DNA from: Nitrospinota bacterium
GTDB taxonomy: Bacteria > Nitrospinota > Nitrospinia > Nitrospinales > JACRGP01
DNA: 42,164 bases
NCBI GenBank assembly: GCA_016217765.1
Contig: JACRGP010000192.1
Location: 1 to 42,164, forward strand
Reading direction: 5' to 3'
The notes below the pieces were generated by a model. It did not search any database and was not told where the DNA came from. It saw only the letters and a list, made by a program, of their open reading frames with translations. Position numbers and translations under genes: made by a program. Shown here in pieces: positions 8,227 to 11,200 of this stretch (positions are counted from its first letter, which is position 1; the number at the start of each line of letters is the position of its first letter).

Positions 8227-11200
8227 ATGTCCTCAAAAACAAACACCGAGCGATCCCAGGTAGAATCCAGGGGGCGGATGAACTTCGCCCGAATTCCCTC
8301 GGTTATTCAAATCCCCAACCTGATCGAGATCCAAAAGAAGTCCTTCGAGTCCTTCCTTCAGATCGACCGTAGTCCCAAGGACCGCGAAGTCAGGGGTTTC
8401 GAGGAAGTGTTCAGCGACGTTTTCCCCATCTCGGACCTGAACATCAACGCCCGGCTCGAATATGTCGGTTACGAGATCGGCATCTGGGAGTGCGGTTGCG
8501 GCGAATACAAGGACTTGGGCGGAGAGGGCGTGATCTGCGATAAGTGCGGCCAGGAAGCGATTTACAAGGAGAAGTTCAAGATGAGCGAGTGTCGGCAGAA
8601 GGGCTTGACCTATGCCGACCCCATCAAGATCATGGTGCGGATGGTCCTGTTCGACCGCGAGCGCGTCGAATTGACGCCCAAGGCGTTCAAGGACCTTGCC
8701 GGGAGGGTGATCGTCGAGGAAGTGAAAAATCCCCAGACCGGGAAAATGCTTGTCCCCGCCCGGACTGAAATCTCCGCGGACGTCCTGAAGACGCTTCAGG
8801 AGCATAAGGTGGCCCATGTCGTCGTCAACTCCGTCCGGGAAGTCAAGGAGCAGAAGATTTTCCTCGGCGAGATGCCCACCATGAGCCCCACCGGGACGTT
8901 CATGATCAACGGCGTGGAGCGGGTGATCGTCAGCCAGATGCACCGTTCGCCGGGGGCCTTTTTCTCCCACGACAAGGGCAAATCGCACGTCAGCGGCAAG
9001 TTCCTGTATTCCGCGCGGATCATCCCCGACCGCGGCTCCTGGATCGACTTCGAGTTCGACGTGAAAGACATCCTCCACGTCAAGATCGACCGCCGGAGGA
9101 AACTGCCCGCGACCGTCCTGCTCAACGCGTTCGGGATGGACATCAACTCCGTCCTCAAGGCTTTTTACGAAATCGAGAAAATTTCCTGCGACCCCAAGGA
9201 CGGCCGGTATTACTGTAGCGTGAAGAGCCTGTTGACCGGCTTCAAGGTCCTGGAAGACATCGTGGATCCCAAGACCGACGAACCGATCGTCAAGGCCCAG
9301 AAGAAGATCACCCCGGTCATCAAGAAAAAAATCGCCCGTCTCGGCAAGGCGTCCCAGAAAGTCGAGATAGACAAGGAGAGCCTGATCGGGTGTTTCCTGT
9401 TCGACGAGAGCGTCGACAAAAAGACCGGCGAGGTCGTTTTTGGCGGCAACCAGGCGATCGCCCAGGAGACGCTCAACCTGATCGAGCGGCACGGGATTTC
9501 CGAAATCCAGATCCTGCATATCGACGAGGAATCGCCGGACACGTCCATACGCGACACCATCCTGGCCGCGAAGATCGCCACGCGGGACGAAGCCATCCGC
9601 GAGATCTACAAGCGCCTGCGTCCCGGCGACCCGCCCACCGCGGAAATCGCCAAGACCTTGTTCTGGAGCCTGTTTTACAGCCCCAAACGCTATAACCTGT
9701 CCGTCGTGGGACGGATGAAGATGAACCAGAAGTTCGGGCTCGACATCCCCCTCGAGAACCGCCTGCTGACGCTGGAGGACCTGGTGGCGGTGGTCAAATA
9801 CCTCGTGGACCTCAGGAACGGGATCGGCGACGTGGACGACATCGACCACCTCGGCAACCGGCGCGTCCGCGCGGTGGGCGAGTCCCTGGAGAACCAGTTC
9901 CGCGTCGGGTTGGTGCGCATGGAGCGGGCGATCGTCGAGCGCATGTCGATCCAGGACCTCAACATATCCATGCCGCACGACCTGATCAACTCCAAGCCCA
10001 TCACCGCCGCGATCAAGGAGTTTTTCGGCAGTAGCCAGTTGTCCCAGTTCATGGACCAGACCAACCCGCTTTCCGAGGTGACGCACAAGAGAAGGCTGAG
10101 CGCCCTCGGGCCGGGCGGGTTGACGCGCGAGCGCGCGGGGTTCGAGGTGCGCGACGTCCATCCCACGCACTACGGGCGGATCTGTCCCATCGAGACGCCG
10201 GAAGGACCCAACATCGGACTCATATCGTCCCTCAGCACCTTTGCCCGCGTGAACGAGTACGGCTTCATCGAAACCCCGTACCGGAAAGTCGCCAACGGCC
10301 AGGTCAGCGACGAGGTGGAATTCCATACCGCGATGATGGAGGACAAATACATCATCGCCCAGGCCAACGCCAAGCTGGACGGCAAGAACAAGTTCGTGGA
10401 CCAGATCATCTCCGCCCGGCAGGGAGGCGACTTCATCCTTTCGCCCAGCGACAAGATCGACTACATGGACGTTTCGCCCAAGCAGTTGATCAGCGTCGCC
10501 GCGTCGCTCATCCCGTTCCTGGAAAACGACGACGCCAACCGCGCCCTGATGGGGTCCAACATGCAACGCCAGGCCGTCCCCCTGCTCAAGGCCGAGGCCC
10601 CGCTGGTGGGGACGGGGATGGAAGGCATCGTCGCGCGCGACTCCGGGGCGGTGGTCATCGCCGAAAATGACGGCGAGGTGATCAGCGCCGACGCGTCCCG
10701 CATCGTCGTCCGGGCGGAGGCGACCGGGAAGGGCAAGAGGAAAGGCCGCATACTGGACTCCAAGGTGGACATCTACACGCTCTACAAGTACCAGCGGTCG
10801 AACCAGAACACCTGCATCAACCAGAAGCCGCTGGTCTCGACCGGCGACAAGGTGAAAAAAGGCCAGGTCATCGCCGACGGGCCTTCCACCGACAATGGCG
10901 AACTGGCGTTGGGCCGCAACGTGCTCGTCGCCTTCATGCCCTGGGACGGCTACAACTTCGAGGACGCCATCATCGTCAGCGAAAAGCTCGTCAAGGAGGA
11001 CGTGTACACCTCCGTCCACATCGAGGAGTTCGAGGTCGAGGCGCGGGACACCAAGCAGGGAAAAGAAGAGATCACCCGCGACATCTCGAACGTCGGGGAA
11101 GACGCGCTCAAGAACCTGGACGAGAGCGGCATCATCCGCATCGGCGCCAGCGTGAAGGCCAACGATATCCTGGTCGGCAAGATCACCCCCAAGGGGGAGA

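Follow-up and report, generated by a model that had tools for sequence, protein, structure and literature searches.

The beta subunit of RNA polymerase (RpoB) of a Nitrospinota bacterium carries a cysteine module that is, by sequence comparison, homologous to the zinc-binding domain (ZBD, Zn1) of the beta-prime subunit (RpoC). The reading we favor, with a probability of about 0.6, is that the RpoB module and the beta-prime ZBD are paralogues of long standing, the former now sitting in a protrusion turn of beta and forming a putative zinc-stapled finger for protein docking.

The rpoBC locus

The window, that is, the whole 42,164-nucleotide stretch analyzed (GenBank assembly GCA_016217765.1, contig JACRGP010000192.1), holds a gene cluster of ordinary type: L11, L1, L10, rpoB, rpoC, S12, S7, EF-G and EF-Tu. 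The features of interest are as follows.

8227 to 12450, plus strand: rpoB, beta subunit, 1407 aa (open reading frame, translation; Pfam Rpb2 domains 1, 2, 3, 45, 6 and 7, all above cut-off)
8482 to 8571, plus strand: 30-residue insert, RpoB residues 86-115, replacing a two-residue turn (RpoB N-terminus alignments)
8485 to 8556, plus strand: predicted zinc module proper, RpoB residues 87-110 (RpoC match, PDB profile search, AlphaFold)
8491 to 8499, plus strand: codons of Cys89 and Cys91 with the residue between them, first knuckle, C-x-C (sequence)
8536 to 8547, plus strand: codons from Cys104 to Cys107, second knuckle, C-x2-C (sequence)
12534 to 16628, plus strand: rpoC, beta-prime subunit, 1364 aa, with the classical module (Pfam Rpb1 domains 1-5)
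12732 to 12803, plus strand: beta-prime ZBD, RpoC residues 67-90, paralogue of the RpoB module (pairwise match)

Both knuckles are invariant in the alignment of cysteine-bearing modules (A3). RpoC residues 67-90 correspond to residues 67-93 of E. coli beta-prime in the PDB alignment. Long frames also run on the minus strand opposite rpoB (8233-12519, 1428 aa) and rpoC (12516-16280, 1254 aa); these are probably codon-bias shadows.

Similarity to the beta-prime zinc-binding domain

As described in the sequence-only reading of this DNA, RpoB residues 87-110 align without gaps to RpoC residues 67-90 and share their C-x-C-x12-C-x2-C spacing, with 15 of 24 amino acids identical. That the DNA is similar was also correct (54 of 72 nucleotides are identical), but the identical run, given there as 14 nt, is in fact 16 nt long (AGGGCGTGATCTGCGA). 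The ungapped BLOSUM62 score of the pair was 98, whereas 100 shuffled RpoB sequences reached at most 50. At the 20 non-cysteine positions there were 11 identities and a score of 62, which was not equaled in any of 200,000 shuffles with the four cysteines fixed (mean −16, s.d. 11). Neither chance nor the four cysteines alone therefore explains the match.

Database searches pointed to the same family, bearing out the proposed relationship to the beta-prime domain. Searched against all PDB chains with phmmer, the module found beta-prime chains (E 4e-5). When a profile built from 18 diverse RpoB modules was run against the whole PDB, 58 of the 60 best distinct sequences were beta-prime or gamma and the remaining two were weak Rpb12 matches (E 0.045), so that the beta-prime ZBD was the only family clearly recovered. 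Rpb12/RpoP and other small-subunit ribbons are likewise CxxC ribbons on RNA polymerase; they are, however, separate archaeal or eukaryotic subunits, only a short stretch aligns, and the match is far weaker than that to beta-prime. The generic Pfam ribbon families gave no convincing match: the window module hit only TtuA_LIM_N, at 17 bits against a cut-off of 27, and just one or two of the 18 profile members were matched, at E 0.05 or worse. The model of the module folded in isolation was poor (pLDDT 69), and its structure comparison was weak (best E 0.75), with beta-prime chains dominating the list.

The two modules thus share the spacing, the core WEC.CG..K.....G...C..CG and the identity seen within the operon. 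They differ in location, the RpoB module being found in the protrusion turn of beta and not near the beta-prime N-terminus. They also differ at K7, R10, K12 and R14 of the beta-prime domain, which become E, E/G, G and P in the RpoB module, and the latter is net negative with dispensable cysteines.

Position in the beta subunit

The protein is a bacterial beta subunit by its Pfam domains (Rpb2 domains 1, 2, 3, external 1, 6 and 7) and by Foldseek, in which the best structural matches of an AlphaFold model of residues 1-635 were bacterial beta chains. The mean pLDDT of this model is 89, and residues 81-120 reach about 96-97. When 310 RpoB N-termini were aligned, the module came out as a clean insertion into a turn of two residues, with the LEYVGYEIG strand before it and the EC helix after it. 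Other bacteria, lacking the insert, typically have 'EP' or a similar sequence at the turn, and their 30 insert columns are essentially empty. The comparison with a typical beta lacking the module held for an E. coli-like RpoB (L225), which reads YRLGEPLFDVKEC at the site and has no insert. An extra insert in beta had thus been recognized properly, but its assignment to the lobe (beta2) was wrong: the site belongs to the beta1/protrusion domain.

The E. coli beta subunit has lineage-specific inserts of its own, SI1/beta-i4 and SI2. The RpoB module resembles such inserts in being a phylum-patterned insertion at a surface turn of the conserved beta subunit. Unlike a large barrel-sandwich or helical domain, it is small, bears cysteines and has its relative in the partner subunit.

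Distribution across bacteria

Whether the module reflects a single unusual event or the trait of a phylum had been left open; RpoB surveys showed it to be a trait of the whole phylum and of several others. The insert was present in every Nitrospinota RpoB whose N-terminus was read. A match was obtained in 66 of 77 Nitrospinota genomes, and the full-length RpoB matches run through the module. The other carriers of a single ribbon are Tectomicrobia-type genomes, genomes of a nine-member phylum and the Aquificota (93 of 94 matched genomes), most of whose modules have a different spacing and core. Loci L242, L247 and L249 have a longer form, as does the G065 phylum, the genomes of which are about 1 Mb and all 30 loci of which were classed (L114-L143); this form has as many as four cysteine pairs and would presumably make up two zinc ribbons. 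Acidobacteriota RpoB may have a cysteine-rich insert at this site too.

The insert was missing from 111 of 130 loci in a domain-wide sample, drawn from the relatives of a genome that has its phylum to itself; the count gives no frequency since the best-matching half was read and carriers are over-represented. The same sample contained three fusions of rpoB and rpoC in a single open frame of 2465-2627 aa (L260 in G486, L280 in G376 and L281 in G347). One genome of the same order as the window genome (G007) has, beside an rpoBC locus with the insert (C42), a second one whose RpoB has none (C14:483051-487381). The insert-less copy may be contamination, which is estimated at 4% for this genome.

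Age and origin of the module

In an RpoB tree computed with the insert left out, all Nitrospinota and Tectomicrobia-type carriers formed one clade (SH-aLRT 99), and the other carriers fell elsewhere. Presence and absence of the insert require five changes on this tree, which is compatible with horizontal spread and with multiple losses or multiple gains. A joint tree of the modules rests on only 30 columns (the module has 24-30 residues), and its results are indicative, with low power and long branches that meet. The single-ribbon RpoB modules of Nitrospinota, Tectomicrobia-type genomes, the G062 phylum and Aquificota formed one clade in it (99/99), apart from RpoC. Forcing the Nitrospinota/Tectomicrobia RpoB and RpoC modules together cost 39 log units and was rejected (AU p = 0.042). 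The two-ribbon RpoB modules (G065 phylum, L242, L247 and L249) joined RpoC. A tree with all RpoB modules in one clade was nevertheless not rejected (p = 0.285), and the data leave room for a second, independent origin of the two-ribbon form.

Two other accounts of the similarity were weighed. One is recent copying or gene conversion from the rpoC of the same operon, which would supply the high DNA identity. In its favor, RpoB and RpoC have the same codon at 14 of the 15 identical residues, where 8.5 are expected from codon usage (chance by codon usage 0.0018), and codon identity is slightly higher within than across genomes (0.61 versus 0.51). The window is, however, the top outlier among the 31 genomes compared, and the probability becomes much weaker after this selection. 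At the protein level, RpoB and RpoC modules of the same genome share 12.1 of 24 residues on average, exactly as do those of different genomes. The best RpoC matches of the window module (17/24) come from Latescibacteria and Shapirobacteria, and the module has the RpoB-specific residues E7, L11 and G12. Together with the separate RpoB clade and the rejected grouping with RpoC of the lineage, this makes a recent copy very unlikely, and the idea of a local transfer from the neighboring gene is not supported. The other account is convergence, in which independent zinc ribbons merely came to look like the beta-prime ZBD. Zinc ribbons are indeed short and common, and most Aquificota forms have CxxC with variable spacing. 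Against this, the non-cysteine similarity lies far above that of shuffles, the profile search of the whole PDB returned almost only beta-prime and not other ribbons, and Pfam offered no convincing generic family; we find convergence hardly credible.

An old transfer, with the RpoB module as an old paralogue of the beta-prime ZBD, fits the data best. The near-universal occurrence of the beta-prime module makes it the likely source and a copy from beta-prime into beta plausible. The module would have lodged in the protrusion turn most likely once, in the ancestor of the single-ribbon carriers, or have spread among them, and would afterwards have been inherited with rpoB.

Change of the surface and loss of cysteines

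The RpoB modules depart from beta-prime where the latter is basic. K74 of beta-prime (module position 7) is replaced by E. R77 (position 10), mostly R or K in RpoC, is E, G or D in the RpoB modules, while K79 (position 12), which is K or R in all RpoC, is G in all RpoB modules. R81 (position 14) is mostly P. The mean net charge is −2.1 for RpoB modules compared with +2.8 for RpoC modules. R77, L78 and K79 of E. coli beta-prime contact putRNA (PMC9378689). Since two of the substituted positions (R77 and K79) lie in this interface, the RNA-gripping surface of beta-prime is, judging from the aligned residues, gone from the RpoB modules. The function has probably changed from the beta-prime role, as the switch of the contact surface from basic to acidic points to a new one.

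The cysteines of the RpoB module are dispensable in several lineages. The site was lost and the insert kept in 12 of 59 Nitrospinota/Tectomicrobia-type sequences (L027, L028, L029, L030, L033, L034, L037, L041, L049, L050, L240 and L241), which corresponds to five changes on the tree; L051, on a truncated contig, was left out of this final count. In several of these inserts a turn resembling DPKTGQ or DEETGE stands where the second knuckle would be. The RpoC cysteines were kept in all nine of the genomes with a cysteine-less RpoB in which RpoC was readable. The insert is exactly 30 aa long in 57 of the 59 rows, including most cysteine-less ones, and W, E-[YF] and LGG are largely kept in the latter. 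With length and core preserved in spite of cysteine loss, the shape and acidic face of the insert appear to matter more than the metal.

Proposed function

The protrusion (beta1-lobe) comprises residues 18-138 and 333-392 of Thermus beta and is near the upstream part of the bubble; CarD binds it close to the upstream bubble edge (PMC4593161). The Mfd RID also binds the protrusion, and Mfd D6 touches the same domain (PMC7864632). We propose that zinc would serve as a staple for a short rigid finger extending the protrusion, and that in cysteine-less lineages the same finger would be held by packing alone. The finger would act by protein contact through its conserved acidic E-[YF]..LGG face, not by gripping RNA. 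Its site of action would probably be the upstream face of the enzyme, the side on which the Mfd RID, CarD and similar factors engage the protrusion. One CarD/TRCF RID domain is encoded in the genome, within a 1164-aa frame such as Mfd would have; a separate CarD was not found in the assembly, which is 71% complete.

The module might instead do the job of the beta-prime ZBD, as a second nucleic-acid ribbon on upstream DNA or nascent RNA. Its homology to that domain and the closeness of the protrusion to the upstream bubble edge are in keeping with such a role. The basic RNA-contact loop has nevertheless turned into E/G-L-G-G-P within a negatively charged module, and repeated cysteine loss is tolerated in genomes whose RpoC keeps its cysteines, which makes this reading unlikely. 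We consider it similarly improbable that the insert is a neutral decoration of a tolerant turn, with no specific role. It is lacking in most bacteria, inserts of several kinds are accommodated at the turn, and the cysteines have been lost in several lineages; yet the near-constant length, the core conserved even in cysteine-less lineages, and the retention of the insert across Nitrospinota and nearly all Aquificota argue for constraint.

A second copy in the lobe

In one Nitrospinota family, a further module was found about 300 residues downstream of the first, in the lobe region. The two RpoB sequences concerned are:

L044, 4129 to 5988 (G572:C81): RpoB with second module, WECGCGDYIFKGPEDPKTVCEKCKKK
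L045, 3684 to 5543 (G571:C32): RpoB with second module

Of the 77 genomes, these two alone gave a match extending through the second module when the query spanned both. The second module of L044 has 15 identities to the RpoB protrusion module and 11 to RpoC; that of L045 has 12 to each. A wider scenario, tentative and on balance doubtful, is that the module is mobile within the polymerase. It would have moved from beta-prime to the protrusion before several phyla split, had its charge reversed for a new upstream-face partner, and been re-duplicated into the lobe in this family, making four zinc sites possible compared with the usual two.

Significance

In the literature accessible to our search there was no earlier description of a zinc insert in RpoB, and we provisionally regard it as newly described. 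Few cellular machines are as conserved as RNA polymerase, and small surface modules common to both of its large subunits are unexpected. Confirmation would mean that several phyla, Nitrospinota and Aquificota among them, bear an additional zinc finger, on little-studied enzymes and on the domain that docks transcription-repair coupling and initiation factors. Carriers also share a character of use in deep bacterial phylogeny, and the module lends itself to a simple test of functional change after a move between subunits. As a caution for annotation, searches with the beta-prime zinc domain will match RpoB in carrier phyla.

A second extension of RpoB

RpoB of the window has another extension (8656-8832, plus strand): VRMVLFD and VREVKEQ are separated by about 59 aa, compared with some 12-18 aa in most bacteria. 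This stretch is absent in L048 and present in the relatives L035 and L044. It lies immediately ahead of the motif that corresponds to the IKEQ strand of E. coli.
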